From assembly GCF_014696435.1 (NCBI RefSeq), contig NZ_JACJQG010000057.1, positions 1 to 63,041 on the forward strand: DNA of 63,041 bases, read 5' to 3'. Every line of letters starts with the position of its first letter. Position 1 is the first letter of the stretch. Below are positions 1,465-37,675 of the stretch, one piece after another. This stretch comes from Calothrix anomala FACHB-343. GTDB lineage: Bacteria > Cyanobacteriota > Cyanobacteriia > Cyanobacteriales > Nostocaceae. The notes under the pieces were generated by a model. That model was not told the origin of the DNA, ran no database searches, and worked only from the letters and a program-made list of their open reading frames with translations. A program made the position numbers and the translations under genes.

Positions 1465-3018
1465 TTAATTAATAACTGTATCTTCCCGAAGGATAAAGGA
1501 ATTGTCTTCTCTTAGTAGGAAAGTATTATCTTCCCTAAGTATTCCTAAGTTTATAGTGTTGATATTATCTTCTCTCAGCAGATAAGTACCGTCTTCTCTT
1601 AAGATAAAGTCCCCATCTTCTCTGAGTAAACTGCCGTAGATAATTTCAGAATCTTCTGTCAGTAAATAAGTACCATCTTCCCTTAAGAGATAACCACCAT
1701 CTTCCCTAAGAACAAAGTATTCAGAGATAGGATAAGGTGAGGAATCTGAAGGAAGTTGTATCTTATAAATAAAGTCAGATAACTTTCTTATAGTCGTATC
1801 AGATAAAGCTTTACTTAATCCTAAGACTGTGTGAATCTTACCAAAGTAATTAACACCACCTATCTTTAAAGTACTCTTATATAAGGTATTATCCCAATAT
1901 CTAAGCCAATTCCAGAAGTCTTCTCCATTATGTCTACCACCATTACTAGGTCTTAAATTAGTGGGTTTAGTACCATCTAAAGGAGTGATTGTATAGCCGC
2001 CTTGGATGTTTTTATTATCAATAACGTAAGTTGGTGTAAGACCTCTACCAGCCCCAGTATCACCATGATAATCCCAATATAAAGCACCAATTCTTTTCTC
2101 CCTTGAAATCGCGTAGGAAGCTTGAGTAGCCTTCTCAGTTGGATTTAAATTATTATCTGAACCAAACTCTCCTAAGAAGATAGCTAAGTCTAATTCATGT
2201 ACCCTATTAATATAATTTCTAAGCTTCTCGGTGTATTGTTCTTGGGTATATGAATCGGTATCTAAGCCCCAAGTTTCATATACGTGAATACCAAATAAAA
2301 TATTGTTGTAATTAGCTATAGGAGCATAAGGATTATTAGGGTCTCTAAAAGATAGTAAACTTCTACCTCTACTCAGAATTGCTGATGAGCCTGTAGGAAC
2401 TGGATTAGCATTATAGCTAACACCTTCCTGCCCAAAGAATAAACCATTACAAACTATAGGGTTCGTCTTACCAGTATCTCTAATTGCCTTAATAAGTACT
2501 TGGTACATTCTTGCCCAAGAATCCAACTGACTGGCTGGATTCATATTACCAGGTTCATTTATTGGTTCTAGCCAGACATAAGGATTATCTTTGTATAACT
2601 CAGCATATTCCGCCCCTATATCAGCAACCTGTTGGAGGCTAGGATTAGTGGTTGAAGATAATATATAACCAGCAGCTTGACCGTTAACATGGTGGCAATA
2701 TTCGAGCATACATACAATACCCCTGCTAGTAATTTCTTCTACAGCATTGGCAATTGATTCTGCTCTTGTATCTCCACCTAGAGTAGTATTTAAAGGATTA
2801 CAGCATACTCTTATTGTATTGACTCCCCAAGCCTCAGCATAAACCATTGAGTCTTCAATATAAGGCCCAATAACTCTAGGCTGACCATTTATCCAAACTG
2901 TACCTGCTCTTTGATTAGTCTTGCCGTATCTATAGCCAAGAAAGTTAAAACCTCTAGGAATAAATTCAGAACCATCAGGGGCAAATATTCTTTTACCTAC
3001 TATATTAAATCCAGACAT
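1465..3018 (-). CDS. GH5-like glycoside hydrolase tail protein with LREDG repeat tail, 517 aa
   Basis: Residues ~1-370 look like a GH5 cellulase-type TIM barrel. They open with a segment holding PDGSEFIPRG, the region around 65-71 reads WGVNTIR, the acid/base Glu lies in LEPINEPG (E155), and the nucleophile Glu lies in FLGEFGS (E284). Such folds cut beta-glucans or mannans. In a phage tail this would fit digestion of the sheath or slime. Residues ~437-517 are nine or so copies of a short unit LREDG/LREDN with aromatic spacers (YLL, FIL, FLL), probably a trimerising or adhesive beta structure. The gene lies between an arabinofuranosidase-like gene and a fibre gene. Substrate is unknown. Confidence 0.75.
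   Translation of the reverse strand: MSGFNIVGKRIFAPDGSEFIPRGFNFLGYRYGKTNQRAGTVWINGQPRVIGPYIEDSMVYAEAWGVNTIRVCCNPLNTTLGGDTRAESIANAVEEITSRGIVCMLEYCHHVNGQAAGYILSSTTNPSLQQVADIGAEYAELYKDNPYVWLEPINEPGNMNPASQLDSWARMYQVLIKAIRDTGKTNPIVCNGLFFGQEGVSYNANPVPTGSSAILSRGRSLLSFRDPNNPYAPIANYNNILFGIHVYETWGLDTDSYTQEQYTEKLRNYINRVHELDLAIFLGEFGSDNNLNPTEKATQASYAISREKRIGALYWDYHGDTGAGRGLTPTYVIDNKNIQGGYTITPLDGTKPTNLRPSNGGRHNGEDFWNWLRYWDNTLYKSTLKIGGVNYFGKIHTVLGLSKALSDTTIRKLSDFIYKIQLPSDSSPYPISEYFVLREDGGYLLREDGTYLLTEDSEIIYGSLLREDGDFILREDGTYLLREDNINTINLGILREDNTFLLREDNSFILREDTVIN
1468..1713 (-). repeat. Coding tandem repeat for LREDG units
   Basis: The 3' end of the GH5-like gene consists of imperfect repeats coding for (L/I)LRED(G/N) followed by aromatic-aliphatic triplets. 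On the plus strand they appear as recurring TCTTCTCTTAG or TCTTCCCTAAG blocks. The copies differ in codons, so the repeat has been kept at the protein level. Confidence 0.8.
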
Positions 3019-8263: not shown

Positions 8264-9454
8264 TTACAATTCCCCAATGAATGTTTCAGATTCTCCAGCC
8301 CCTCTAAGAGATTCATATATTACTCTATCTTCAGATAGCAGTTGAACAAACAAACTATAGGGGTAAGGTAATGAGTATTGATTTGGTATAACTATGTTAG
8401 TTGGAGAACCATTAAGACTAAGTGTTTGTATATTCTTAATCCCCTCAGTTAGCCTTAGGTGATACTCTACTTCATTAAGGATGATATCTTGACCAACTGG
8501 GTAGGTAGATGGGTTTAAATAACTTTTATAAGCTTCCCATAAATCATTTATAACCTGTTCAACATTAGCTCCAATTGTTACTTTAGCTATCAATGATGCA
8601 CTGATATTTATAAGCTCCATTGGGCTTATATAAAGCTGTGTACCTAACTGAATTCTTCTGCTTAATGAATCACTAACTAGTTGCACTTGAGCGTCATTAG
8701 CGGGTTCCTGATTGGCATTTAGAAGAAATAAATGTACTGCCCCTAACTCTTCCTCATTCTTATTTCTAGATAATAATCCTATTGCCTTAGCTACAGAACC
8801 TTCACCTAATATTGTCTCGGCAGCAACTTCATAATCATCTTCCGATACTAGATTTCTAATTCTTAATTCAGTTAATCCTCTACTTATGGTTTGGTCTAAT
8901 GTTTCTGCATCAGTACCTCCTGAAGAAGATTCAACATTAGTTATCGAGGATAAGAAACTAAGGGGCTGGGTAGCTCTAGTTATTGTGTAAGCTGGTAGAT
9001 TATATTTGCTACCTACTTCCTCAGCAGTAGCAGTCACAGAACCAGCTATAAGTCCAGGAGGGATTTGAAGGGTAGCATCAGTGAAGAATGAATATTGCCC
9101 CGAAGAGTCTACTACCTCAAATCCCTCAGGAATTGTAAATGGTGTTGATTGCGGTGCGGTAAGGGTAAAAGTTAATGTAGTTACTGCCTTAGTACCTAGA
9201 GATTGCTCTACACCCGTGACCTTTAAGAAGTCCACTACTAAAGCTAATGGAAGTTTATTTACATGATAGAGAAACTCAGAAGCAGCAAAAGCTTGACCTT
9301 GAATTAAGGCAGCTACAGGTGAATTCTCAGAGAAATCGTTTAGCTGACCCCCTGAGGCGTTGTATACCCTAAGTTGAGCTTGGGAAACTATTGATTCTTC
9401 ATCTCTATCATCTAGAAGAATCGTATCTAATGGGATTGATGATATATCCGTCAT
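8264..9454 (-). CDS. Baseplate wedge protein, gpJ-like, 396 aa
   Basis: It belongs to the baseplate J family. The middle part carries the common pattern AxxVGSKYNLPAYTI, then TNVESSSGGTDAETLDQTISR, followed by EDDYEVAAETI and the GAVHLFLL strand near residue 240. With the gp25-like and gpI-like products it forms the wedge of contractile baseplates. The gene order gp25, gpJ, gpI is conserved and complete here. A 7-bp gap separates it from the gp25-like gene. Confidence 0.85.
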   Translation of the reverse strand: MTDISSIPLDTILLDDRDEESIVSQAQLRVYNASGGQLNDFSENSPVAALIQGQAFAASEFLYHVNKLPLALVVDFLKVTGVEQSLGTKAVTTLTFTLTAPQSTPFTIPEGFEVVDSSGQYSFFTDATLQIPPGLIAGSVTATAEEVGSKYNLPAYTITRATQPLSFLSSITNVESSSGGTDAETLDQTISRGLTELRIRNLVSEDDYEVAAETILGEGSVAKAIGLLSRNKNEEELGAVHLFLLNANQEPANDAQVQLVSDSLSRRIQLGTQLYISPMELINISASLIAKVTIGANVEQVINDLWEAYKSYLNPSTYPVGQDIILNEVEYHLRLTEGIKNIQTLSLNGSPTNIVIPNQYSLPYPYSLFVQLLSEDRVIYESLRGAGESETFIGEL

Positions 9455-10432: not shown

Positions 10433-11167
10433 TTACCAGCCCTTATTGACTATTACATCCCCGTCACTATCTACAGCCCCTAATGTTGTAATCTGCTTCC
10501 CGTTAACAGATAGAGTTGAGCAGTTAGTTAGCTCGATACCATAACCCCCGCAGTTAATTGTTAGCACCCCACCACCCATCTCTGATGTCCCATTACTGTA
10601 GAGCTTAATAAACCACTGACCAGCTTTTAACATTACATACTGGGCTGCTACCAAAGTAAGTGCTTGTAAAGCATCCATTAAGATATTTCTCTTAACTTCT
10701 ACTTTGAAGTCTTCTTCAGCAGTATGGGTTGCACTCTTGTCTGTAGTGGTAGAGAATTCTCCTTTGACGGTTAATGAATCATCACCACCAATTTCAACAA
10801 CCTTATTACCAGGAATACTTTCAGAATAATCATCTTGAACTGATTCCTTATCTCTAGGGGGATTAGTTGCATTCATTAGGGATATATAATATCCATTAGT
10901 CTCAACCCCTTCTGCATAAAGCACTAGAACTGTTTGCCCTACGATAGGTAAAGGCGGGTCAACAAAAGGAGATGGTAATAATCTCCTTAACCAGTCACTT
11001 TCTAACTGAGGAGCAGATGGTAGAGATACTTTTACCCTTCGTTTGTTCTCTGGATCTTGGTTATTTACTACTATCCCCATCACGGGGTAATTGTATCTTC
11101 CTACTGAATCTAATGCCACCTGTGAGGCTTTATTAGAATCTAATAATATCTTAAATATCTCTTCCAT
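10433..11167 (-). CDS. Baseplate spike protein, gpV-like, 244 aa
   Basis: It has the architecture of gpV/gp5 OB-fold spikes. Residues 25-105 form the OB fold (YPVMGIVVNNQDPENKRRVK, then LPSAPQLESDWLRRLLPSPF), with a beta-helical C-terminal part from ~130 (DSLTVKGEF, INCGGYGIELTNCSTLSVNG) ending KGW. It forms the tip under the hub that pierces the envelope. Its ATG follows the true stop of the spliced hub gene (11172) by 4 bp, the same short AT-rich spacing as elsewhere in this operon. Confidence 0.8.
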   Translation of the reverse strand: MEEIFKILLDSNKASQVALDSVGRYNYPVMGIVVNNQDPENKRRVKVSLPSAPQLESDWLRRLLPSPFVDPPLPIVGQTVLVLYAEGVETNGYYISLMNATNPPRDKESVQDDYSESIPGNKVVEIGGDDSLTVKGEFSTTTDKSATHTAEEDFKVEVKRNILMDALQALTLVAAQYVMLKAGQWFIKLYSNGTSEMGGGVLTINCGGYGIELTNCSTLSVNGKQITTLGAVDSDGDVIVNKGW

Positions 11168-11171
11168 AAAT

Positions 11172-14100
11172 TTAAAATATACTACTACCTACTGAAGGTA
11201 GTTTTACTCTTGTTGTAGGGTTAATAGGAGTACCATTAACCCTAATTTCCCAATGTAAATGTGGCATTTATATTCACTCAAGGTCGTTAATCTTGAGCCG
11301 CTACTTTAAGTAACTGCTTGTACTTTAATACAAGATTAGACTACATCTTAATCCTCTAAGGATTCTCCCCATTTCCACCTACTTAGGTGTACTCTTCTAA
11401 AGATAGTCGTTGAAGCTTTTCCTTGTCTAATTGATTTAGGAACTTGCCTGCTGATTACCCAATCTTTAACTTTTCTAACCTTCACACTTACCTTTTCAGA
11501 TTATGTTGTGGTGTTAAAGCTCTTAAGGCTTCCCAGCAATTAAGGGAGATTCAATATAAAGTTACCTCTATATTGGGCTACATTTAACCTGTACTATGCC
11601 CAGTGCTGCCCATTAATCCTATTAATTGACCTTGCTGAACTTGTTGTCCTACTTGAACTTTAATACCCCCATCCTCTAAGTGACCATATAAAGTCTTCTC
11701 ATTATTAGAATGGTCAATGATTATCTTGTTACCATAACCATCTGAAGCATTACCCGCAGTTGATACTGTTCCTGAAGCTGCTGCATATATAGGAGTACCT
11801 GAAGAATTAGCTATATCTACTCCATTGTGGTTTCTGCCACCTCTAGGCCCAAATGGAGAGGTGAATGTGCCTTTAGTTGGGATAATGTAGCCTGTAGGAT
11901 TACTACTTGTTGAATTTGAATTAGTATTAGGAGGAAGGTCTGCACTAGCGTTCTTATTCTTGAGTGGAGAATAGCAACTTACTTTAGTAATAAAGGTGCC
12001 CCTAGAGTAATCATGGGTAACCGTATCAACTACCCACATCCTATCTAGGAAGGTACTTACACCTTTAGTCAGGAATGGTGTATCTGGATCTAATGTCAGA
12101 GCTTCTGGGGTAGTAGGGAATTCAGCACTAGCTAGTATGCCCTTAATCCTGTCCTCATTAGCTTTCCTGTCAGCATCTTGCTTATCAGTAGTGCCAGTAG
12201 TCTTAGGGGCAGGTGCTTTGATTGGTGATCCAGTTGTTGCGATCGCAGAATCTCTACCAGTACCAATTACATTCTCCTTCCTCTTCTGCACCATTTGACC
12301 TGTATCTGGGTCAATCTCATATTTCCTTTCCCCTGTTGAGTTATTAGCTCCTGGTACAGATGACCTAGCACCACCTTCAGCATCCTTTTGGGCTTCATGT
12401 ACTACCTCAAAGCTAGTGCCCATATTATCCCCATACTCTAGGACAAATATCTCCTTATCTGTAATGACACCTGCTCTAGGTTTAATAAATAAGGTAGCCC
12501 CCTTGGTATACACCCTGTAACCAATCCTTCTAGCTTCAATTAGTAAAGCTTCATAGTCAGTTTGACCACGCTGAGGGAAATAATTATAAGTTGGGCCTTC
12601 CTCAGGCATATCTAGCTTCATGCCATAAGAGCTTGTTATTCTCTGACCTATCTTCTTGAAGCTAAGGTTAGTGTAAACAGTATTCTTAATTCTCTGAGTT
12701 AATACCCATGAAGCAGCTTGCCCAGTAAATTCAAGAGCATTTGGTTCAAATAAACTGAATCTTAAACCTGTATGGATAAAGGAATAAGCTGCTATTGTCT
12801 TGCCGCTATAACCCAACTCAACTGTAATCTGTGAGCCAGCTAAAGTAACTGGAGTAGGCACAGCTTCCTTAGTGGGAGTAGTAGACGTAGACTCGGCTGC
12901 TTTAGTAGCAGCACTAGCCGAGGCAACTGTACTGAGTGCTTTTACTACCCTTTCCATATAGGGGTATAAGGCATCCCTTAATGGTGCAAAGTTATCATTA
13001 TTAACTCCAGCGATAGTTAATCCAGTTAGGACATTATTAAGTGGAGCTATCTCTAGGATTGTGATTCCCCTGGTAGGTGCTCCTAAATTGTCTCTATGCT
13101 TGAAAGGAAAGTGTCCAAACTCCTTAGCTAAGGCAACATCCATAACACTAAGGAAGTTACCACTGGCATCATACTTAGCCCCTGCTATAACTCCAGCCCT
13201 ACCAGCAGGCTCATCAAAGTGTAATTCCAGAGCATAAGCACCAGTCTGTTCTTTAAGCTTCTGTACCTCATCTTGGTAAGACCTACGGGCAGCATCTCCT
13301 CTACTAGAGCCAATGGGAGGAGCAGTGATTACTGTATAGCCAGCTTTCATCAGCATTCCCCTAAGCAGTTGAGCAGCTATCTCAGTAGTTACCGATTCTA
13401 CTGTTCTAGTTTCACCAGCATAAGTAACACTGCTACCACTAGTACCATTTGTCCCACTACTGATATCTATTCTATGACCAGAAGTAATTATTATTGACTT
13501 AGTTGGCCCTACTTTAGGTAATGGCCAGTCACCTATCTTCTCTGCTTTAAATGGGTTATTACTAGCTTGCTGTTTCTTAGTCTTTTGAGCATCTTCCTGA
13601 ACTATTTCTTGTACAGTTTTATTTTTATTAGATGATGAAGCAGTAGTGGTTTCTTTCTCTAACCATTCAATCTTGACATTAATAATTCCAGGTGTAGCAT
13701 TATTAGTTAATTCTTTCCATGCTCCAGGAGTTAAATCAATCTTTCTTGTAGGATGAGGTCTAAGAGGTCTTAAGGCACTTTTGCCATCTGGTGTTGTTGC
13801 AAAAGGGCCTGTTGATACAACAGTAACTATTACTGATTTATTATTTGCAAGATTAGTAACCCTCATCTTGGCATACTTGTAATAATTACGCCAATATTCA
13901 GAATCAGAAGAAGAAGGATTATAGTTTGGGTGAATCATGGCAGCAAACATACCATTAAAGTTTATAGGATCACCCCAAGCACCCTTATCACCCCCTTGCG
14001 TTGATTCACCATAACCAAAGGTAGAAGCTTGAGTATTCTCATATAGAACTTTACCCGCCGTACTATTTGACTGGTCTGGTTCAGTAACAGGAGCAGTATT

Positions 14101-14373
14101 ACTATTAGTAGATTGATCTCCAGGATCAGGAATTGGATCTAATCCACCTACTGTTTCTATATAAGAGAAGTATTTATCTGCTAATTTTTTATCTGGGTCT
14201 AATACAGTAAAGCTACAGCTAGATTGAACTTTACCTTCTCCTAGAGTTACTGATGCGAATATTAGCTTTCCATCTCCTACAGTGAAAGTATCGCCACTTT
14301 GACTACCTAAGCTACCTAATGTAATACGTACAAAAGGATCTATTAATCTCTGAGATGGGTTTGGATTAACCAT
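11172..14373 (-). CDS. Tail hub with three wall-hydrolase domains, interrupted by a group I intron (959 aa after splicing)
   Basis: Coding parts are 14373-11587 and 11264-11172; joining them restores the frame at GHSTG/PHLHWEI and gives 959 aa. Domains: N-terminal hub strand region (1-90); RlpA-like double-psi barrel (~115-240, with MIHPN, YYKYAKMRVTNLANNKSV, STGPF, RKIDLTPGAW); amidase_3-like domain (~290-480, H300 in TSGHR, H385 in ELHFDE, E441 in ILEIAP); late-control D/gp27-like hub core (~505-680); M23 peptidase (~830-959, H849 and D853 in HNGVD, H898 in LYGH, H931 and H933 in PHLHW). Without splicing the frame ends at TAA and lacks HLH. It probably sits above the spike and digests peptidoglycan at injection. 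Confidence 0.85.
11265..11586 (-). ncRNA. Group I self-splicing intron, probably subgroup IA, 322 nt, no internal gene
   Basis: 5' to 3': the exon ends in U (GGU) and the intron ends in G, as required. P1 would pair GGU with GCC. P10: intron nucleotides 1-7 (UAAAUGU) pair perfectly with ACAUUUA in the 3' exon. P2 CAAUAUA/UAUAUUG; P3 UCUCCC/GGGAGA; P4 UUGCUG/CAGCAG; P6a UUCC/GGAA; P7 GACUA (in UUCAACGACUA) with UAGUC (in AAGAUGUAGUC); P7.2 CACCU/AGGUG; P8 AUCCU/AGGAU; P9 CUUGUA/UACAAG; P9.2 CUCAAG/CUUGAG. The extra hairpin between P7 and P3 suggests subgroup IA. Splicing restores the M23 motif exactly. The intron itself supplies the in-frame UAA. Confidence 0.93.
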
Positions 14374-14376
14374 AAT

Positions 14377-14904
14377 TTAAATAATATTAGGTAAATATAA
14401 TAATGAAATATTGATAATTAAAGCAAAGGTCAGCACCCAGTCAATAATCCTCCAGATAGGTACTTCGGGCTCATAACTGCTAGTTTTAAGTGCCTTCCTA
14501 ATTCTCTCTGCCTTAGTAGGAGCACTCAGACTCTTAGATATGGAAGATAAATCTAAATCTTTAAGTATTTTATCCTGGTCTATATTAATTCCTAATAGCT
14601 TAGTAATAGTTTTAACTTCTCTAGAGTTTAATATCTCTTTAACCCTAGATTGAACTTCCTTGTTAATACCATTAATCTCAATAGCAGCTTGGTCTTTAAA
14701 TCTCCTCTCTGCTTCTTCTTTAGTAGGTATTGTTAAGGTTTGCCCTATCTCTATTGCCTTGAAGATATCTATATCATTCATGACTGCTAGCTCTCTCCAA
14801 GAGGAATAATCCCCTAGTACTTCACTTGCTATATTCGCTAGAGAATCACCAGCACTTATCTTTATAGTTTTAGTTAAATTTAAAGGTAAAGGTTGTGTAC
14901 TCAT
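14377..14904 (-). CDS. LysM tail protein with C-terminal membrane segment, 175 aa
   Basis: Residues 10-60 are a LysM domain (KISAGDSLANIASEVLGDYS, then WRELAVMNDI, then IGQTLTIPT), which binds peptidoglycan or acts as a baseplate connector in gp53/gpX-like proteins. A helical middle part follows, and residues ~150-173 are hydrophobic (IIDWVLTFALIINISLLYLP). A membrane-like end is uncommon in LysM baseplate proteins and may insert in the host membrane during infection. It lies between the tube-initiator and hub genes, as LysM genes often do. Confidence 0.75.
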   Translation of the reverse strand: MSTQPLPLNLTKTIKISAGDSLANIASEVLGDYSSWRELAVMNDIDIFKAIEIGQTLTIPTKEEAERRFKDQAAIEINGINKEVQSRVKEILNSREVKTITKLLGINIDQDKILKDLDLSSISKSLSAPTKAERIRKALKTSSYEPEVPIWRIIDWVLTFALIINISLLYLPNII

Positions 14905-19014: not shown

Positions 19015-20508
19015 TTATGATTGAGTATTAGATTGAGTCTCAGGCTGGATTAATTGAGCTTCTACTTGGTCTTGATTTAAAGGTAAAGTACCAATTGAAA
19101 CTCTGATTGTATTAATCAACAGTTTCTCCATTGCTGGGGCAGGTACTACATAAACTTCCAATAGAACATTACCTTGCTCTAACTCATCAGGGGTATTATT
19201 CTCGAAGTCACATTTAACTTCAAATGCTTCAGCTTCAGTAGCGCCAAATAATGCTTTACCTCTCCATAAACGCGAGCAAACCGATTTAGCTGTAGCGGCA
19301 ATAGAGGCTAATAGAACACCTTGACCATCAACCACAGAGAACAGTTCATTATCAAATCCCTTACGAAGTGTTCCATTAAGGACATTCATAATAACTCTAG
19401 TATTTAGGAAGGTATAAAACTCATTACTAGAACGAGTTCTCATTGCCCACACAACTACACCTTTATTTCTCAGGTTGCGAATGATATTAATACCTAGTGG
19501 GTTTAGTATTTCTTGTTGCTGGGTGTTGACCTTGGTAACTACATCTTTAACCCCCAACACTGGGAATTTAGCACCAGCAGGAGGTTGTTGGAATCCTTCT
19601 TCCCTATATCTGCGAGTAGCCATACCAGCTACACCTGCTGATGGAGGAACTACACCATCTTCCAGGTCAGTTAGGTAAGGGTAATAAAATCCTGTATGCC
19701 CTTGCGGAGAGGTATATAAGATACCTTCTGCTTGAGCTTGAGCTACGGTTAATCCTGAACCCGCATCAATCAAAGCTACCCAATCAAAAGATTCATCAGA
19801 AGCTAATGCTTCCATTGCATTACCAACAGATAATCTGTCAGATTGTGTAGTTAGTAATTGGAAAGCTTGAGGGGCAATTAAAAACCCTTGAGTCCAGTCA
19901 TCCTGACTATCAAAGGAGTTCTCGATCGCATAAACGTAGTCTGTAGCAGCAGGGGTAGTGAGGTTTAAGGCCGCTACGGATAAATTTGAACCTACAGTAA
20001 CCGCTAAATTATCTAGTGGATTATCTGCTCTAATAACAACTTTATCAGTGCTGTCTCCAGAAATAGCGGTAACGGCACTGGCTACAGAAGAGTTATTAAC
20101 AGCATCAAGTAAACCAGAAGCAACACTAGCAAGAGTAGGCGTTGGACTAGCAGGTGCAGTGTAGGTAACCGTAGTTCCGTTGATTGTGGCTGTATAAGCA
20201 CCTGCTACAGCAGTGCTAACAGTAATTGTGAATCTCTTAGCAATAGGTGTTCTTACAAAGTAAAGTAACCCTCTTCTATTATTTCTGAAGAATAATTTAA
20301 CTGATGCTTCAGAAGGAGATGCACCAAATACATTGGTAAAATCAGTTAGTGAGGTAACCTGTGTTGGAGTTAGATAGTCTCCCGATGCTGAGGAGCCAAT
20401 CATATAAACTGTCTCAAATGAGGCAATTGATAATGACCTGTATCCTTGAGTAGATTCTTGGATACGAACTCCAGGCCCCTTGAAATTGGCAAATATGCTA
20501 GTTGTCAT
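19015..20508 (-). CDS. Tail sheath protein, 497 aa
   Basis: The N-terminus GPGVRIQESTQGYRSLSIAS, then a conserved strand VYMIGSSASGDYLTPTQVTS, identify a contractile sheath subunit. Residues ~95-190 are a Thr/Ala-rich variable domain exposed on the sheath. The C-terminal core has LGINIIRNLRNKGVVVWAMR, SNEFYTFLNTRVIMNVL and the family-typical last strand with RVSIGTLPL. Its presence shows the phage is a myovirus. Start at 20508 follows the upstream stop by 3 bp. Confidence 0.9.
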   Translation of the reverse strand: MTTSIFANFKGPGVRIQESTQGYRSLSIASFETVYMIGSSASGDYLTPTQVTSLTDFTNVFGASPSEASVKLFFRNNRRGLLYFVRTPIAKRFTITVSTAVAGAYTATINGTTVTYTAPASPTPTLASVASGLLDAVNNSSVASAVTAISGDSTDKVVIRADNPLDNLAVTVGSNLSVAALNLTTPAATDYVYAIENSFDSQDDWTQGFLIAPQAFQLLTTQSDRLSVGNAMEALASDESFDWVALIDAGSGLTVAQAQAEGILYTSPQGHTGFYYPYLTDLEDGVVPPSAGVAGMATRRYREEGFQQPPAGAKFPVLGVKDVVTKVNTQQQEILNPLGINIIRNLRNKGVVVWAMRTRSSNEFYTFLNTRVIMNVLNGTLRKGFDNELFSVVDGQGVLLASIAATAKSVCSRLWRGKALFGATEAEAFEVKCDFENNTPDELEQGNVLLEVYVVPAPAMEKLLINTIRVSIGTLPLNQDQVEAQLIQPETQSNTQS

Positions 20509-23759: not shown

Positions 23760-23928
23760 GCAAAAGGGGTGCGTAAAATGGCTGTAACCTATATTAGATA
23801 AGGGTTGTAGCTACTCTACTAATAGTACTATGCTATCTTGTCTCTTTCTTTCTCTACTTTCCCTTCTCTTCTCTTCTTCCTCCTCCTATCTCCTCTTCTA
23901 TTTCCCTTTCCTGTTCTGGTGATAGGTT
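23760..23928 (+). repeat. Polypyrimidine element, copy B, overlapping the portal gene end
   Basis: Starts GCAAAAGGGGTGCGTAAA, continues through a GCTGTAACC/GGGTTGTAGC hairpin and AGTACTATGCTATCTTG, and then a ~75-nt C/T tract. The tract forms the last codons of the portal gene on the other strand. The right-hand block CTGTCTAGG is not recognisable in this copy. Confidence 0.7.
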
Positions 23929-25341
23929 TCCTAGTAGTAGTGTAATTAGTTTCTTGTAGAGAATTAAATATGCTGTTGGTGGTAATTGAGCCTGTAGAAT
24001 GCTTAAGTCTGTGTCTACTAACTCTTTAATATTTGTTAATAGGTTGTCTAAATTATCAAGTTCAAATTTATCTAGTCCACTCACCGTTACTAAATCGGTA
24101 ATTCCTTGAGATTTAGCTACTAATTGGAGCAGGTCTTGATAAGCGTCTACTAGTATTTGCCCATAGGACTTGAGGATGGTCTCTTGATTATAGAAATCTA
24201 GCTGCTTGGATACACCGGATTGCTGTACTGCCCCTAATGAAGAACTTACTCCCCCAAGGGAAACCAAATCTCTAACCTGATTCTCTATCTGGGATAGACT
24301 TTCTCTAAGGTGAGCTAAGATATGCCCCTGAGGTTCAGACCATTCAAACTTCTCTAGCTCTAGTACGTGCTGTAATCCAGTAGGAGGCGCTTCATCATCC
24401 CCCTCAAAGGTGGCATGAATATCTCCATCAGGTGTCTGTACTCGCTTATAGGTGCGTTGGAAGTAAGCCAGAGTTAGTAAATCATATTTAGAACAGTCAG
24501 TTCTTAGATGCTCTAATGCTTTAGATGCCGCCTGATCGCAGGCCCACAGGTCATCAGGAACTTCAACCTTTACTACGGGTATTGTCCCTAGATTATGAGG
24601 TACTCGACTATTTAAATAGACATCAACATCTCTATTACCTCTTTTATCCTCACCCTCAAGTACATTCTTGATATTTCCTGCTGAATCCAATTCCACATAA
24701 GCTTCATATCTAGCAACGTATTTAGCATCAATAAAAGTCCAGATAGCTTTAGTTTGTGGGGGAGATAAAGGATTAGTTGTATCTTGAACTATTTGGTAGA
24801 CTTTAACCCAATCAGGCCGCCCTTTGGTCTCTGACCAGTTAATTACCTGCATGGCAGAGTAAAGGGTTACATAAGGTCTAATACCTAAGGTTTCCTCTTG
24901 AGCTTTATTAAGTGGAGTAACCTCAGATTTAGGTTTGTCTACGTGAAGATATACTTTCTTAAACTTCAGTAATTCTCTAAATATATTAGATATTAAATTC
25001 TTCTCTGATCTGCCAGCTAAGTCAGTATCGTCTCTAAAGTCGTCCCAGAAGGTTTGATTCTTCTCTATACCTGAAACGGTAACAGTACTGTTATTAAATT
25101 TAGATAGCTGCTTACTGATAGCCTGCCCTAAGACATTAGAATAAGTAAACTTATGCAGTCTGGTTTCATAGATATCTAAATCCTCTCCTGGTCTTCTAGG
25201 GAGGAATTGTTTTATCTGTGCCTTGAGCTTATAACCACCTGAAGCTAGTAAATCAATCTCCCTATAAGCGGGCAGCATTAAAGTATATTCTGGGTGCGTT
25301 GATTGAAGTAGCTCCAGAGGTAATTTATTCGGATATTCCAT
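23854..25341 (-). CDS. Portal protein (DUF4055-type), 495 aa
   Basis: It follows large terminase by 3 bp and has the pattern of DUF4055 portal proteins: an N-terminal Tyr/Leu-rich helix, GYKLKAQIKQFLPRRPGEDL, then YSNVLGQAISKQLSKF. A central region holds RPYVTLYSAMQVINWSETKG, and VRDLVSLGGVSS lies in the C-terminal helices. It forms the dodecameric DNA gate. The last ~15 residues (EEEIGGGRREEKGK) are encoded by the purine strand of repeat copy B and may not belong to the fold. Confidence 0.8.
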   Translation of the reverse strand: MEYPNKLPLELLQSTHPEYTLMLPAYREIDLLASGGYKLKAQIKQFLPRRPGEDLDIYETRLHKFTYSNVLGQAISKQLSKFNNSTVTVSGIEKNQTFWDDFRDDTDLAGRSEKNLISNIFRELLKFKKVYLHVDKPKSEVTPLNKAQEETLGIRPYVTLYSAMQVINWSETKGRPDWVKVYQIVQDTTNPLSPPQTKAIWTFIDAKYVARYEAYVELDSAGNIKNVLEGEDKRGNRDVDVYLNSRVPHNLGTIPVVKVEVPDDLWACDQAASKALEHLRTDCSKYDLLTLAYFQRTYKRVQTPDGDIHATFEGDDEAPPTGLQHVLELEKFEWSEPQGHILAHLRESLSQIENQVRDLVSLGGVSSSLGAVQQSGVSKQLDFYNQETILKSYGQILVDAYQDLLQLVAKSQGITDLVTVSGLDKFELDNLDNLLTNIKELVDTDLSILQAQLPPTAYLILYKKLITLLLGNLSPEQEREIEEEIGGGRREEKGK

Positions 25342-25344
25342 AGA

Positions 25345-26595
25345 TTATTTTAAAAAGTTTTTATATTCTAGAGTTGCTATGACATACCTAGTAGCATCTA
25401 CTAAGTGAGCGCACTCCTGATTCTTAGCTGGTTTATCTATCACATTCCCTGAGGAATCAGTCTCCCTTACATATGACCTGAGACTATCTTCTAATTTAGT
25501 TTGGGTTGATTTAATTAGTAATCTATCTTGATAAAATAGGCTATTTACTATAGTGCATCCCTCAGAGATTCCAGGTTTATTTCTATCAACAGCTATAGCT
25601 TTCTTCAGCCCTTCTATATCCCGACTCTTACCAACCTTCCTTAACTCAAATATTGAGGCAGGTCTATCATCAGGTAGATAAGCCCTACGTACTTTATATT
25701 TATTACAGAACTCTATAGCTTTAGTTATTAAATCTGCTTGAGGTACAGCATTACCTGGGTGTGGATTAGACCATGAATCTATTAGATAATATTTCTTATC
25801 TTTGTATCCAACTACAACCAGAGCAGGATTTATATCTCCCCAATCACAACCTAGAAAGGTGTGGTCGAATTCACTAGGAATATCCGCAACTATGTGGCGG
25901 GAATCTATACAGTCAAATATAGCCCCTGTAAAGTCTTCAAAGCTGGCTTCAAACTCCTGCCTATATGTTCTAGGAGGTAGGATGATTTTAGCTCTGTTAA
26001 GGAACCTCTTAGGTACAAACGGATTATCTTTTGTTATGAAGTGATAATAAGCCCAATCACTATAAGTTTTAATCTGTAAATGAAATCTATGAAGGAAATG
26101 AGCTTTACCTTTAGGAGTACCAATTAAAAGAGCTTTAGAGTTAGCTGTATCGGCTAATGCAGGATAAACAACATCTTCCCAAGCTCTAATAGAGAAGTCT
26201 TGGAATTCATCTAAACCTGCCCAGTAGAGTTTTAGACCTCTTAATCCATCCCCATTATTATCCGCACCTCTTAATAAAATATCTGGCTTATTACCTTTAA
26301 GTTTTATTCTGAAATCAGTTCTAGAAATACTTTCTACAAATGGCTGATTCTCTAATAGATTTAATAAAGGTTGCCAGTGAATTTGTCTACATTGTTTGAG
26401 AGTAGGCATTACTATCAAGCAGACAGGAGGGCTAGCTGGGTCAATAGATTGATTAAATGAAAGAGCAGCATGGATAGCTGAAGTTAGTAGTAGTCTACTT
26501 TTCCCCCAACGTCTAGCCGCTATTAATAATTTGAATCTAGCTTTAGAGAGGAATACTTCAGCTTGCTTCTTATGGAGAGAGAGATTCATCATCAT
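25345..26595 (-). CDS. Large terminase subunit, 416 aa
   Basis: The ATPase domain has Walker A AARRWGKSR near residue 35 and Walker B LYWAGLDEF near 130, with a coupling motif LLIGTPKG after ~155. The nuclease domain has the first Asp in HTFLGCDWGDINPALVVV and a late Asp in CAHLVDATRYVIATLE. The start is set at ATG 26595 (one of three consecutive ATG codons), behind GAGGGGGAAG and overlapping the small-terminase end. It cuts and pumps DNA into the head. Confidence 0.85.
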   Translation of the reverse strand: MMMNLSLHKKQAEVFLSKARFKLLIAARRWGKSRLLLTSAIHAALSFNQSIDPASPPVCLIVMPTLKQCRQIHWQPLLNLLENQPFVESISRTDFRIKLKGNKPDILLRGADNNGDGLRGLKLYWAGLDEFQDFSIRAWEDVVYPALADTANSKALLIGTPKGKAHFLHRFHLQIKTYSDWAYYHFITKDNPFVPKRFLNRAKIILPPRTYRQEFEASFEDFTGAIFDCIDSRHIVADIPSEFDHTFLGCDWGDINPALVVVGYKDKKYYLIDSWSNPHPGNAVPQADLITKAIEFCNKYKVRRAYLPDDRPASIFELRKVGKSRDIEGLKKAIAVDRNKPGISEGCTIVNSLFYQDRLLIKSTQTKLEDSLRSYVRETDSSGNVIDKPAKNQECAHLVDATRYVIATLEYKNFLK

Positions 26596-27073
26596 CTTCC
26601 CCCTCAATTTCTATAGGGTCAGTTAGAGTTATGTTTATCTCATAGTTGGATTCATTATTTATATTCAATTCATCCATCTCTTCTTTAATACTCTTCACAG
26701 CTTGGACTACTACTGGAAGGTTAACTTTATGCAGGTCTACTACAGTTCCTTTTGATGTCTGAACCTGCTCTATATATCCGTTTAACCCTAAGTCAACTAC
26801 TCTCTCTAATACCTTTAATCTAGCTAGTTTATGAGAATATCTAAGTAATCCTATTTCTAAAGCTTTCTCTATAGCTAAGGTACTATTATCAGTGAAGAAT
26901 TTAAATGCTAATCCTTCTTTCTGCTTTAGATATATAATTTGCTTGTCAGTTAATGATTGACCTGGAAATCTTTCATTGAATTCTTTTTTAATTTGCCCAT
27001 TACTAAGAGTAGGGTTAGAGATTAGTAGAAGTATTAGGTAATCTTTATGTTGTTGGTTTAAATGAGCGGTCAT
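26570..27073 (-). CDS. Small terminase subunit, 167 aa
   Basis: Overlaps large terminase by 26 bp. It contains an N-terminal helix-turn-helix-like part (SNPTLSNGQIKKEFNERFPG, then SLTDKQIIYLKQ) and an acidic C-terminus (EIEGEDDDESLSP). This is the usual plan for a DNA-recognition subunit. The start at 27073 is preferred to an upstream in-frame ATG (27085) because that ATG lies inside a terminator hairpin. Confidence 0.65.
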   Translation of the reverse strand: MTAHLNQQHKDYLILLLISNPTLSNGQIKKEFNERFPGQSLTDKQIIYLKQKEGLAFKFFTDNSTLAIEKALEIGLLRYSHKLARLKVLERVVDLGLNGYIEQVQTSKGTVVDLHKVNLPVVVQAVKSIKEEMDELNINNESNYEINITLTDPIEIEGEDDDESLSP

Positions 27074-29702: not shown

Positions 29703-30353
29703 TTAATTAATAGGAGGATTCCATTCTTCTACTACAGCTTGCCAATATCTTTCTTCTATCAATTCCCCCCTGCCCTTCAGCATTCTACCTTCCTTTCTGA
29801 TAGCCCAGAACATATAACTGCTCAATCTATTAAGAATTGCTGAATGGTAATTAACATTATTAGTTAGGTCAGGCTTGAGTAATAGAAACCCTACTACCTC
29901 ATTGCTATACCGCCACCTAATAAAGTATCTTTCTAGTTCCCTGATATCGATTCTTAGCTTATCTAGACTAATTAATGTTGGGTGATTATGGTAAAGGAAA
30001 TCAGGACAGTGACCTAATTCTTCTTGAAGGAGCTTGATATTCTTATCCATCCATTCTATTAGAGAGAAAGGTAATAGATGCTTGTCTGTATTGGCTTTTA
30101 GGTAACAGAAACTAGCTAGAGAGAATATATTTCTATTTAGGTAATAAAGTAGATAATTTAGGTCAGGAGATAGGTCTGGATTGAGATATAAGGCGCTTTC
30201 AATAGAGTTCCTGACTGTTTCTATCTTCCCTTGAATAGTACAAGCTGGAGACGATTTTAGTAGGAGTGGAGCATCGTGCAATACTTGGGCAAAGCCGATA
30301 TCGCCGCTACCTGCGACATAATTAGCCGTGATTCTTTTATTAGACATATTCAT
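29703..30353 (-). CDS. PduO-type cobalamin adenosyltransferase-like protein, 216 aa
   Basis: The order of segments resembles PduO-type ATP:cob(I)alamin adenosyltransferases. An N-terminal glycine loop (GSGDIGFAQVL) stands where the family has TxxGDxGxTxL. Helices follow with GKIETVRNSIESALY (family: G.vDELns), then IDIRELERYFIRWRY (family: tv.RRAER) and ILNRLSSYMFWAIRKEG (family: YLNRLSDlLFvlAR). Several key positions differ, so activity is doubtful. It could be a five-helix structural relative. It is isolated, without other B12 genes in the window. Confidence 0.6.
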   Translation of the reverse strand: MNMSNKRITANYVAGSGDIGFAQVLHDAPLLLKSSPACTIQGKIETVRNSIESALYLNPDLSPDLNYLLYYLNRNIFSLASFCYLKANTDKHLLPFSLIEWMDKNIKLLQEELGHCPDFLYHNHPTLISLDKLRIDIRELERYFIRWRYSNEVVGFLLLKPDLTNNVNYHSAILNRLSSYMFWAIRKEGRMLKGRGELIEERYWQAVVEEWNPPIN

Positions 30354-34416: not shown

Positions 34417-35556
34417 TTAATACTCAAATAAAACTGGAACTTGGGGCTTACTAATTACAGAACCAGCATAGTTTTCATATAAAACCTGTACATCATGCCC
34501 AACTAAATGGGCAACTGTTGTAGGAGAAAGTCCACTTTCTAGGCAATGTGAAATAAAACTATGCCGCACATTGTAGAAAGACCTGTACTGAACACCCGCA
34601 ATCTTAAGACAAGTATTCCAAGCTCTTTTACCAAATAGAGAATCATTAATAGCTTTGCCTTGTGGGGAGGGAAATACTAAATCCTCTGGATTAATTTGTT
34701 GAGGTTTTATTGACTTTAATAATTCTTGAAGTTGTTGATTACAGGGAAATATCCTAGCTTTATTAGTCTTAGTTGGTTTACGTACCCCTCTAGTAAGAGT
34801 AGAACCAATCCAAATCTGAGAAAAATCGTCAGCGACATCCTGCCACCTTAAACCAGTAGCCTCAGAAACTCTGGTTCCAGTCATAAATCTGAATTTGACA
34901 AAAGCCAAATAGAATTTATAATTCCTATGCTTCTCAAATGCATTAAGAATTGCTGTGATTTCTTCCTTAGTAAAAGGTCTAGGTAAAGGTTTAGGAGGGA
35001 CTTTAATTCTATTAGGTAAATCTAACCAGGGATTATCTTTGACTAAACCTTGTTTAATTCCCCACTGCCAGCAAGCTCTAATTATGCTTAATCTTTCTTT
35101 TAGAGTTATTGGTGATAGCTTTTGGGAGAGAACTTCAGTAAACTTTTCTACATCAGTAACCTTTATGCTAGAGGTCAATTTAGTACCGAAGAAATCCCTT
35201 AAGTTCTTAAGCGCAATGTTGTATTTCTCTTTACTTCTATCATAGAGAGATTTAGATTTATATTCTCTAAACCTCTCAAACAGATCGATAATTCTAATAT
35301 CCTTGATCTCAGGGATAACTTTCTGACTAGGGGGCTTGTATTTGCTCAGGGTAGCGTCAAAGTTGCCTGAGGCTATATCTAGTTCAATCTGAGTAGCTTT
35401 CTGTTGGGCAGCTTTCCAATTGAGTTTAGTATTGGGCAAGCCAAGATAAAGGCAATAACGCTTCCCAGCATAAGACCATCTTAGTCTAAGCCTAGTCTGA
35501 TATTCCTCAACGGCTACAACTCCCTTCTGGACTTGGTTTTGAGCTTTTATTTTCAT
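34417..35556 (-). CDS. Tyrosine recombinase (phage integrase), 379 aa
   Basis: The N-terminal half contains an SAM-like core-binding domain (residues ~95-185). The catalytic half carries the first Arg in RFMTGTRVSEATGLRWQDV, the Lys region after SQIWIGSTLTRG, the Arg box as FYNVRHSFISHCL, GH in VAHLVGHD and the nucleophile Tyr in YENYAG. The first His of the usual HxxR is replaced (NVRH), a change seen in several integrases. It lies 113 bp from tRNA-Pro, so the tRNA 3' end is the likely attachment site. Confidence 0.9.
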   Translation of the reverse strand: MKIKAQNQVQKGVVAVEEYQTRLRLRWSYAGKRYCLYLGLPNTKLNWKAAQQKATQIELDIASGNFDATLSKYKPPSQKVIPEIKDIRIIDLFERFREYKSKSLYDRSKEKYNIALKNLRDFFGTKLTSSIKVTDVEKFTEVLSQKLSPITLKERLSIIRACWQWGIKQGLVKDNPWLDLPNRIKVPPKPLPRPFTKEEITAILNAFEKHRNYKFYLAFVKFRFMTGTRVSEATGLRWQDVADDFSQIWIGSTLTRGVRKPTKTNKARIFPCNQQLQELLKSIKPQQINPEDLVFPSPQGKAINDSLFGKRAWNTCLKIAGVQYRSFYNVRHSFISHCLESGLSPTTVAHLVGHDVQVLYENYAGSVISKPQVPVLFEY

Positions 35557-35594
35557 ACCAGTTTCATACCAGTTATAGTTGAAATTGGTATGGA
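35552..35594. repeat. Tandem 11-mers and an inverted copy at the integrase start
   Basis: TTCATACCAGT is repeated exactly (35552-35562 and 35563-35573), and an inverted relative AATTGGTATGG lies at 35584-35594. The integrase ATG is inside the first copy. Arm-type integrase or excisionase sites, or autoregulation of int, would explain this. Confidence 0.5.
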
Positions 35595-35621
35595 ATTTAA
35601 ACTTAAGCCTACAAATGGGAA

Positions 35622-35654
35622 AGCCTGCCGAATCCTGTAAAAGGAAGGCAGGCT
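35622..35654 (-). terminator. Terminator downstream of tRNA-Pro
   Basis: Stem AGCCTGCC (35622-35629) with GGCAGGCT (35647-35654), 17-nt loop, then TTCCC on the minus strand. It would end the tRNA transcript. The T-run is weak. Confidence 0.5.
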
Positions 35655-35668
35655 AGGGATTTTAATAA

Positions 35669-35742
35669 TCGGAGCGGCGGGATTTGAACCCACGACCTCC
35701 ACTACCCCAAAGTGGCGCGCTACCAAGCTGCGCTACGCCCCG
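35669..35742 (-). tRNA. tRNA-Pro(GGG), prophage attachment gene
   Basis: A complete cloverleaf: acceptor CGGGGCG/CGCTCCG, D arm GCGCAGCTTGGTAGCGC, anticodon stem CCACT/AGTGG with loop TTGGGGT (anticodon GGG), T arm with GGTTCAAATCC, discriminator A. CCA is not encoded. The prophage begins directly at its 3' side and integrase is adjacent. The duplicated 3' part expected at the other prophage end is outside the window. Confidence 0.95.
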
Positions 35743-35792
35743 GTCAGAATTATCATAGTAGCAAGAAGTTTGAGGATAATCAAGAGGTTTAT

Positions 35793-36158
35793 TTAAAAAA
35801 CTTTGAGCATCTCAGCTGCTTGCAACAAACCAGGGACGGCAGAGTTATCCCATTGACCTTCTGCACAGCGTCCTGTATTCAGGATAAAGCGCAGACTGTA
35901 GCTGTGGGCATAGCCTTCTACCTCCATCCATAATAAATCGCTTTCGGCCTCGCAAGCAATTTTTTCTTCATCCATCAATTCGGTTGCTATTTGTTTGATG
36001 GTGTCGGCTAGCTGTGCCAATAAGCGGCAAAAGTCGTTCAACTCGGCTTCGGTTAATTCAACTGCCCAATCATCTGTACCCAATAAACCTTTAAACTCAG
36101 GTGCATGAGGGTTCCAACCAATACGCCAACCAGGGCCGCTTTTAACTAAACGTTCCAT
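35793..36158 (-). CDS. DUF1818 family protein, 121 aa
   Basis: A small acidic cyanobacterial protein whose length and sequence fit DUF1818: LVKSGPGWRIGWNPHAPEFK at the start, then LLGTDDWAVELTEAELNDFC, and a C-terminal RFILNTGRCAEGQWDNSAVP. The function is unknown; the family is found almost only in cyanobacteria. It is the first host gene past the tRNA and starts at 36158. Confidence 0.8.
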   Translation of the reverse strand: MERLVKSGPGWRIGWNPHAPEFKGLLGTDDWAVELTEAELNDFCRLLAQLADTIKQIATELMDEEKIACEAESDLLWMEVEGYAHSYSLRFILNTGRCAEGQWDNSAVPGLLQAAEMLKVF

Positions 36159-36201: not shown

Positions 36202-37461
36202 CTACCTACACTGACCTGAAGGTACAGTGTAGGCTTCCTGCCCAACAGAAAGCGTAGTAGTAGATTTCTTGCGTCCTCCCTTACTGCGACTTACATCTGG
36301 GCGACAGGCTTTATCCCCCGTTCCAGAGGTCAAGATTCGTAGTCCCTCATCTCTGAGATTAATAGCTGCATTCACATCTCTGTCATGTTTTGTATGGCAG
36401 TTTTTGCAAGTCCAGAATCTTACATCTAGCGGTAAACTACCAACTTGATTCAAACACACATGACAGGTTTTTGAACTAGGGAAAAATCTATCAACTTCCT
36501 GATAAATCTTCCCTGACATTTCTGCCTTGTATTTCAGCATTGTGCAAAACATTCCCCACCCTACGCTCTGGATGGATTTAGCCAAACAATGATTTTGCAT
36601 CATACCCTTAACATTAAGATTTTCTACAACAATAACTTGGTTCTCGTTAACTATCCTACGCGATAGCTTGTGCAGAAAATCTTCACGACAATTAGTGATT
36701 TTTCTATGGACTCTAGCAACTTTTATTCTAGATTTAATTCGATTCTGAGAACCTTCTTGGTGCAGTTGTTCATGGGGGAAACCCCCAAGACCACACTGCA
36801 CCGCTTTTTGCTTTCTAGATAATTGCTGTTGCTTAAGTTTTAAATTCTTCTCATGCTTGTTTAATATTCTAGGATTATCAAATTTTGAGCCATCGCTAGT
36901 AATAGCGAAGTGAGTTAATCCCAAATCAATACCTACTGCTTTACCTTCTGTACTTGATAATTGTTTATCTTTACCATCGTCAACAAGAATTGCTGCAAAG
37001 TATTGATTAGAGCAGTTTTTGGATATGGTGACAGTTTTAACTTTACCCTCAATGGATCTGTGAATTATTGCTGATACTTCACCTATTTTAGGTAGACTTA
37101 AACAATTATCAGCAACTTTCACATTTTGAGGATATTGAATCGACTGTTTACCATGCTTGGATTTGAATCTAGGGTATTTAGCTCGTCTTTCAAAAAAGTT
37201 GTTAAATGCTACTCCTAGATTTAAGCAGACTTGCTGCAAACACTGCGAATAAGTCGATGTTAACCATTCATACTCTTTCTTCAACTGCGGGATTATCTTT
37301 TTTACTGCGTATCCAGACAAACCCTTACCAGTTTCTTTGTATGTTTGGTTCATCAAGTTCAGACAATAATTCCACAGCCAACGACAACTGCCAAAAGCTT
37401 GTGCTAGAGACTGCTGTTGCTGGACATCTGGATATAATCTGACTTTGACGACTCTTAACAT
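36202..37461 (-). CDS. tnpB: TnpB, IS200/IS605-family RNA-guided nuclease, 419 aa
   Basis: RuvC-like catalytic residues are intact: D179 in VGIDLGLTH, E280 in VVENLN, D362 in DRDVNAAINL. A zinc ribbon CHVC...CKNC lies before the last Asp. The N-terminal OrfB domain has MLRVVKVRLYPDVQQQQSLA. The start at 37461 is preferred to 37500 because it opens on this conserved motif. About 17 residues (AVQCGLGGFPHEQLHQE) are inserted after RKQK, encoded by a palindromic repeat. No TnpA gene is present, so the element is a lone tnpB. Its 3' end overlaps the right-end hairpin. Confidence 0.85.
   Translation of the reverse strand: MLRVVKVRLYPDVQQQQSLAQAFGSCRWLWNYCLNLMNQTYKETGKGLSGYAVKKIIPQLKKEYEWLTSTYSQCLQQVCLNLGVAFNNFFERRAKYPRFKSKHGKQSIQYPQNVKVADNCLSLPKIGEVSAIIHRSIEGKVKTVTISKNCSNQYFAAILVDDGKDKQLSSTEGKAVGIDLGLTHFAITSDGSKFDNPRILNKHEKNLKLKQQQLSRKQKAVQCGLGGFPHEQLHQEGSQNRIKSRIKVARVHRKITNCREDFLHKLSRRIVNENQVIVVENLNVKGMMQNHCLAKSIQSVGWGMFCTMLKYKAEMSGKIYQEVDRFFPSSKTCHVCLNQVGSLPLDVRFWTCKNCHTKHDRDVNAAINLRDEGLRILTSGTGDKACRPDVSRSKGGRKKSTTTLSVGQEAYTVPSGQCR
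36205..36233 (-). mobile_element. Right-end hairpin of the tnpB element
   Basis: CCTACACTG (36205-36213) pairs with CAGTGTAGG (36225-36233). The position at the tnpB 3' end is where IS605-type right ends and the guide RNA scaffold lie. The exact element end cannot be set without comparing empty sites. Confidence 0.6.
36759..36802 (-). repeat. Palindromic repeat inserted in tnpB
   Basis: Outer arms GGTGCAGT and ACTGCACC (one with a mismatch) enclose GGGGG/CCCCC around AAA. On the coding strand it adds about 51 nt in frame. Such palindromes are scattered through Nostoc-type genomes. Confidence 0.7.
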
Positions 37462-37675
37462 ATTAGAGTAAACAACGTTTGCTATAAGAGAATATAACAT
37501 AAAAATTTCTCGTTTCCTCCATGTCCAACTCCGGGTTTCCCCTGCGGGAAAATTTGGTCAAAGGACTGTCGTCAACTCGCCTGCCATTCATGAGGACACT
37601 TGCGTGGGCGGGTTTCCCGACTTGAGCAAAGTGTCCGTCCCATGCTGCCCTATCGGGTCAGACGTGGGGCTTCTG

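Follow-up and report, generated by a model that had tools for sequence, protein, structure and literature searches.

Group I introns are known from phage tail and lysis genes. Insertion at conserved sites has precedents, as does an intron that opens with a stop codon. A lysin gene of S. thermophilus is reportedly one of the hosts, in work by Foley et al. from 2000. The available part of a report on the Cluster J mycobacteriophages BAKA and Optimus (PMC3706429) describes a 265-bp intron without an endonuclease in minor tail genes, and mentions introns in staphylococcal lysis genes. Most of the group I introns examined in another study prefer conserved regions, according to its excerpted text (PMC2814812).

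The Pf-WMP3 intron is found in a cyanobacterial phage, at a conserved functional site of a replication gene. As described in the accessible sections of PMC3428280, it is 672 bp long, encodes an HNH nicking endonuclease, lacks P2 and begins with a UAA that stops the unspliced frame, and its splicing was established by RT-PCR. The same sections use the arrangement P7.1-GUA-P7.2 as a criterion for subgroup IA2. This subgroup is traditionally tied to phages, yet is heterogeneous, as stated in an excerpt of PMC11878797, whose authors also asked why the introns of their phages reside only in genes of nucleotide and DNA metabolism.

The window analysed here (the whole stretch of DNA under study, 63,041 nt) is one complete contig, C98, of the 9.24-Mb draft genome of Calothrix anomala FACHB-343, which comprises 144 contigs. 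It very probably contains an endonuclease-less IA2 intron, inserted in phase 0 in the baseplate hub gene of a contractile-tail prophage, whose splicing would yield a 959-aa hub with the HxH site of its M23 peptidase domain. Like the Pf-WMP3 intron in the part of its description cited above, the candidate is assigned to IA2 by P7.1-GUA-P7.2, resides in a cyanobacterial phage at a conserved functional site, and has a P10. In contrast to that intron, it interrupts a tail hub peptidase gene, is only 322 nt long, has a P2 and no endonuclease that could be found, and its splicing is predicted rather than observed. It also resembles the BAKA/Optimus intron, which its authors assign to group I, which occurs in temperate phages and which was recognized through intronless relatives (PMC3706429, available part). 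However, that intron belongs to other phages and hosts, and its splicing was confirmed by RT-PCR, whereas splicing of the Calothrix intron is deduced from the DNA.

The host gene also has a well-characterized homologue. The baseplate hub of cyanophage A-1(L), gp15 (PDB 8kea), carries at its C-terminus a peptidase domain able to lyse Anabaena. In the accessible text of PMC10966104, the peptidase and endoglucanase domains of this hub hydrolyse Anabaena cells, and changes to catalytic residues lower activity or expression. That text does not mention an intron in gp15, unlike the hub gene studied here. Among the matches listed in searches of open-licence literature, none describes an M23 domain or a baseplate hub interrupted by an intron, which agrees with the preliminary description of this locus, whose author knew of no described group I intron at this place in a cyanobacterial prophage. 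Within the literature and sequences searched, the insertion site is therefore apparently new, and a virion enzyme (a cell-wall peptidase of the tail hub) and a cyanobacterial prophage would join the known homes of phage-type group I introns. Introns in tail genes bear on the question about metabolism genes posed in the available part of PMC11878797. Because a homologue with a solved structure and an assayed peptidase exists, the dependence of this virion enzyme on splicing is directly testable.

An interrupted hub gene in a contractile-tail prophage

The hub gene lies on the minus strand. Its unspliced open reading frame (11584-14373) encodes 929 aa, terminating in ...GLMGSTGHSTG, and stops directly thereafter, as had been claimed. 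The stop codon is a UAA that constitutes nucleotides 1-3 of the intron. When the 322 bases from 11586 to 11265 are left out, the frame continues as PHLHWEIRVNGTPINPTTRVKLPSVGSSIF to a stop codon, beginning at 11264, and the joined product is predicted to have 959 aa. Exon 1 thus comprises 929 codons (11587-14373) and exon 2 comprises 30 codons and a stop (11172-11264, beginning PHLHWEIRVNG); the insertion is in phase 0 and separates codon 929 from codon 930. The earlier proposal that removal of exactly this segment restores both the frame and the PHLHWE motif holds in the joined translation.

Exon 1 matches Peptidase_M23 (PF01551) at residues 848-929 with an E-value of 8.1e-25, and covers profile positions 2-80 of 96. 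The final 16 positions of the profile, which include HxH, are absent from exon 1. They are supplied by exon 2, where H931-L932-H933 occurs within PHLHWE, so the domain is split before HxH, in accord with the preliminary description. H849 and D853 of exon 1 correspond to invariant columns of the M23 alignment; at the sequence level, the zinc sites of M23 peptidases, H...D and HxH, are both present once the exons are joined. Exon 1 also matches 8kea (E 5.2e-39), mainly at residues 502-814, while the M23 part aligns to this structure weakly (1.4 bits). These matches support the assignment of the gene as a baseplate hub homologous to that of A-1(L), and with it the earlier reading of a phage tail hub with an M23 domain. 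Exon 2 appears conserved to a similar degree as exon 1: 22 of 30 residues are identical to the hub at locus L062, compared with 62 of 90 for the M23 part of exon 1.

The second histidine of HxH is a zinc ligand that M23 enzymes require. The peptidase activity of this hub should therefore depend on removal of the intron. Automatic annotation will label such a hub as truncated and its peptidase as broken, and the intron explains why. At 11256-11274, the last three intron bases read ATG and begin a 31-aa frame whose first residues are MPHLHWE.

The genes around the hub fit a contractile-tail module of a prophage, judging by their predicted products. A Phage_base_V gene (10433-11167, a Pfam match) and a Baseplate_J gene (8264-9454) lie on one side, and LysM (14377-14904), sheath (19015-20508), portal (23854-25341) and terminase (25345-26607) genes lie on the other. 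An integrase gene (34417-35556) is located beside a tRNA-Pro (35669-35742). An exact direct repeat of 16 bases of the region at about 35501-35915, as might mark an attachment site, was not found within the window. Slightly past this tRNA-Pro is an IS605 OrfB/TnpB-type gene (36202-37500). A cobalamin adenosyltransferase-like gene (29703-30353, Pfam E 4.9e-9) occurs amid the prophage genes, and a glycosyl hydrolase family 5 gene (1465-3018, Pfam E 2.2e-31) occurs at the far end of the tail gene block.

Of the 69 window ORFs of at least 80 aa, 40 were scanned with Pfam, including every minus-strand ORF of that size from 312 to 38260, and none of these 40 matches an HNH, GIY-YIG or LAGLIDADG family at an E-value of 1e-3. 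The other ORFs that overlap the intron, listed from 25 aa upward, have at most 47 aa, and none is long enough for a homing endonuclease. Thus, the ORFs scanned provide no endonuclease in or beside the intron that would mark it as mobile by homing. A remote homing endonuclease is conceivable.

Boundaries, fold and covariation of the intron

The preliminary description proposed a group I intron at 11265-11586, and the covariance-model search confirms this assignment. The Rfam model RF00028 matches 11596-11317 on the minus strand over its full length (positions 1-253) with 84.9 bits, against a cut-off of 50 (E 3.4e-20), and the only other Rfam match above cut-off in the window is a tRNA. The last base of exon 1 is U11587 and the last intron base is G11265, as is usual for group I introns and as had been noted. 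Joint shifts of the two cut points by 1 to 6 bases in either direction never reproduce the joined sequence, so the boundaries are unambiguous. The in-frame exon junction, the empty site in relatives, and a P3-P8 core with a guanosine site in P7 (the latter placed by alignment) are all features of group I introns, and the RNA presumably self-splices in vivo.

P1 (11576-11589; this and all following elements are on the minus strand) pairs GGUUA with UAGCC across the 5' splice site, with a U.G wobble at U11587. P2 is a hairpin at 11552-11575. The strands of P3 are UCUCCC (11544-11549) and GGGAGA (11364-11369), and those of P4 are UGCUGG (11533-11538) and UCAGCA (11449-11454). P8 is a hairpin at 11351-11363. 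These helices are present in both the MFE fold and the alignment. The guanosine-binding helix P7 is formed by GACUA (11404-11408) and UAGUC (11339-11343); the latter strand, with the preceding J8/7 (UAAGAUG), occupies 11339-11350 and is largely invariant among the 14 aligned introns. Between P7 and P3, at 11376-11403, the sequence and the aligned pairs reveal P7.1 (UCUU/AAGA), a GUA linker and P7.2 (CACCU/AGGUG), which together read UCUUUAGAAGA-GUA-CACCUAAGUAGGUG. By the rule given in the available part of PMC3428280, this linker sequence marks the intron as a probable member of the phage-type subgroup IA2. P9 is a hairpin at 11317-11334 in the Rfam alignment.

When 332 nt are folded without constraints, the MFE structure contains P1, P2, P3, P4, P5, P6, P7.2, P8, P9.1 and P9.2. 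Its z-score is -3.27, and none of 100 shuffled sequences folds as well. The earlier claim that core helices P2 to P9 can be drawn is borne out by the Rfam alignment and by covariation, but not in full by the MFE fold, from which P7, P7.1 and P9 are absent; part of P9 appears in the centroid. P7 is pseudoknotted with P3 and hence cannot be drawn by such a fold, which instead places the J8/7-P7 3' strand into a different hairpin.

Covariation was assessed with an alignment of 14 introns chosen from the available matches. Introns that match RF00028 and lie outside this alignment are both of those at L028, those at L030 and L034, one copy each from L026 and L078, the intron at L060 (below the RF00028 cut-off) and the two tRNA introns of the same genome (L002 and L003). 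Several loci found by BLAST have no RF00028 match, either at an E-value of 0.01 (L055 and L074-L077) or at the gathering score (L032 and L058). Of the 48 pairs predicted by RNAalifold, 42 show a double compensatory change in one or more of the sequences. The hand-set structure, which includes P7, attains a covariation score of 0.485, compared with a mean of 0.165 for shuffled alignments; none of 500 shuffles scores as high, and controls with slid partners fall far below (0.085-0.154). In this structure, 85.0% of 869 cells are paired, versus 65.3% on shuffling and 37.6-50.3% with slid partners. However, because the window sequence served to define the hand-set pairs, the paired share is biased toward it, and covariation is the stronger evidence.

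P7, whose GACUA/UAGUC strands had been singled out previously, is paired in all 14 aligned introns, and 13 of the 14 retain the U.G at the 5' splice site. P4 is paired in 98.8% of cells. The weakest helices are the P5 extension (54.8%), P9 (62.3%) and P5 (66.7%), where the low values may reflect a poor MAFFT alignment.

A 7-bp P10 reported in the preliminary description is also recovered. Intron nucleotides 1-7 (UAAAUGU, 11580-11586) are perfectly complementary to nucleotides 3-9 of exon 2 (ACAUUUA, 11256-11262). An equally good match to the intron 5' end was found for 18 of 20,000 random 9-mers of the window, and in 114 of 20,000 shuffles of the two 9-mers. In this P10, nucleotides 1 and 2 of exon 2 have no partner, and a 2-bp extension of P1 is a competing pairing. 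Because TAAATG is present at both ends of the intron, the exon bases of P10 could alternatively pair with the end of the intron. The resulting hairpin (UAAAUG-CCA-CAUUUA) has a predicted energy of -2.0 kcal/mol, and is absent from the best fold of a longer stretch.

Uninterrupted relatives and alternative readings

Matches to the hub at an E-value of 1e-30 or better occur in 9 of 388 genomes of the order and in 23 of 218 genomes of the family, with the Calothrix anomala genome counted in both. Fifteen hub loci were examined for an empty site. Eleven distinct orthologues, 47-70% identical over the BLAST segment containing the M23 part, encode the M23 end in a single frame (L138, L062, L139, L063, L140, L141, L143, L144, L065, L066 and L064). 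L138, from a congeneric genome (G448), equals the hub of Calothrix brevissima NIES-22 (L071) in C-terminus and length, and the two look like one gene. On this ground, the host of the prophage is placed close to strain NIES-22. A distant hub (L145, 27%) is likewise uninterrupted. Eleven weaker loci align to about the final 110-130 residues of the query; four of these (L067-L070) are uninterrupted, and the others are L147-L153. Two relatives of the hub, L142 and L146, lack HxH and have C-termini other than M23, possibly through module exchange of the tail enzyme.

Among the hub loci examined, no second intron was found at the hub site, and the window holds the sole case. Since all 11 orthologues are uninterrupted, the intron is a lone and probably recent insertion in the hub gene, judging by these comparisons. 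A DNA search with the intron at an E-value of 0.01 matched 33 of 291 genomes of the order, with a full-length match in the Calothrix anomala genome alone; matches in the other 32 genomes are partial and extend over at most about 215 of the 322 bases. Within the genus, this genome is the only one of nine with a match.

Viral sequences gave a similar result. Twenty-one viral M23 loci were found, and a scan by M23 alignment recovered exactly this set of contigs. At the Rfam gathering score, 20 of these (L004-L023) include an intron in L004 alone, which is on an IMG/VR contig identical to the hub region, and the remaining locus (L024) has no RF00028 match at an E-value of 0.01. Three patterns for exon 2, applied to viral contigs, yielded 4, 21 and 13 stretches, which were judged by translation and by a J8/7-like motif within 400 bases; the only intron among these 38 is in L100, on the same contig. 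These patterns cover intron ends TG (before the Trp or Phe form of the motif) and AG (the Phe form), and other ends may escape them. A single scan of genome contigs gave one locus, L071.

The ribozyme would fold within the hub transcript and bind guanosine in P7, whereupon cleavage would occur after the U of the U.G pair in P1 and the exons would be joined with the help of P10. The spliced message would then direct synthesis of the 959-aa hub, with an M23 domain that includes HxH. In contrast, translation of the unspliced message would stop at the UAA and give the 929-aa form that lacks HxH. Transfer from another gene with an intron is the most likely route of arrival, and the intron might persist because only a precise loss would spare the active site. 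The time at which the hub gene is transcribed and the route by which the intron arrived are both points that we infer.

Alternatively, the intron may be degenerate and no longer able to splice; the hub would then in effect stop at residue 929, in a prophage that either is defective or no longer has a tail peptidase. That the intron is a lone copy in a lysogen is compatible with this reading, and L142 and L146 indicate that a hub without M23 can exist. However, all core helices are present, exon 2 is intact, conserved and closed by a proper stop, and the reading frames of both hub exon 1 and the adjacent tail genes are open, which makes decay of this kind improbable. If the intron is very recent, decay of exon 2 may not yet be visible even in a non-splicing copy. 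The possibility that the sequence is a chance resemblance or a misassembled intron-like segment is prompted by the draft state of the genome, with its 144 contigs, and is far less probable still. All 6,276 bases fetched of the IMG/VR contig are identical to the intron-bearing hub region, although that contig may derive from the same or a sister assembly, and exact in-frame boundaries with a covarying core are not products of misassembly. Because the intron is known from one genome and this identical contig, it amounts in effect to a single observation.

It is also conceivable, albeit quite unlikely, that the intron serves as a regulatory gate, in which unspliced mRNA gives a hub without peptidase and the enzyme stays off until a signal favours splicing. 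With a stop at intron nucleotides 1-3, each transcript encodes either an inactive or an active hub, and the hairpin at the 3' splice site could compete with P10. A related and similarly doubtful idea is a post-transcriptional safety catch, whereby this competition sets the share of active peptidase and two forms of the hub are built. However, an initial UAA is already described for Pf-WMP3 in the available text of PMC3428280, the hairpin is weak and disappears when a longer stretch is folded, and the intron is present in none of the 11 orthologues, which argues against an evolved switch. An ordinary splicing intron that restores the complete hub is thus strongly favoured.

Related introns in phages and cyanobacteria

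At an E-value of 1 or better, 357 phage records match part of the intron by DNA, and none matches more than 80% of it. The E-values that follow come from collections of unequal size and are not directly comparable. By E-value, the strongest phage matches among the matches listed are in Aeromonas phages (77.9% identity over 47% of the intron, E 3e-21). A phage-like plasmid of C. difficile (L055) matches with 68.8% identity over 88% of the intron (E 4e-18). The best match in a cyanobacterial nrdE intron, found in one genome, has 68% identity over 215 nt (E 1.9e-11).

The strongest DNA matches, in Aeromonas phage phiA009 (L056) and the C. difficile plasmid, reside in tape-measure genes and thus differ from the Calothrix intron in both gene and site. 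The host gene in L055 is annotated as a tape measure protein; that in L056 is annotated as hypothetical and reads as a tape measure protein from its sequence. In the strain CD161 plasmid, the tape-measure gene is apparently split by two tandem intron-like cores (L055:2675-3240), of which the second is the one that matches the Calothrix intron over 88%. The upstream core likewise follows CAGGU|UAA, where the bar marks a putative splice site. Unlike the Calothrix intron, neither core reaches an E-value of 0.01 with RF00028.

Cyanobacterial introns at L026, L027, L029, L030, L031, L034, L035 and L044 share the same core and lie in other genes, which we take to be nrdE or nrdF. In a tree of 16 rows, the intron falls in a fork with a support of 41/84 and has no resolved common branch with the nrd introns. 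The nearest rows by path are an nrdE intron (0.62) and the C. difficile intron (0.63). Because the tree does not place the intron, neither phage nor cyanobacterial descent is claimed.

The Calothrix anomala genome has three RF00028 matches, namely the hub intron and those at C52 and C134, which from their flanking sequence are presumably the tRNA-Leu and tRNA-fMet introns known from cyanobacteria. In the family, 136 of 145 genomes contain one or more RF00028 matches, so such counts are uninformative about phage introns.

Two group I introns whose starts are about 400 bp apart were observed at each of L026, L027 and L028, and the pairs in L026 and L027 lie inside what looks like an nrdE gene. 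Four consecutive RF00028 matches are found in Staphylococcus phage CF5 (L078:1462-2594), just downstream of a gene for a virion structural protein.
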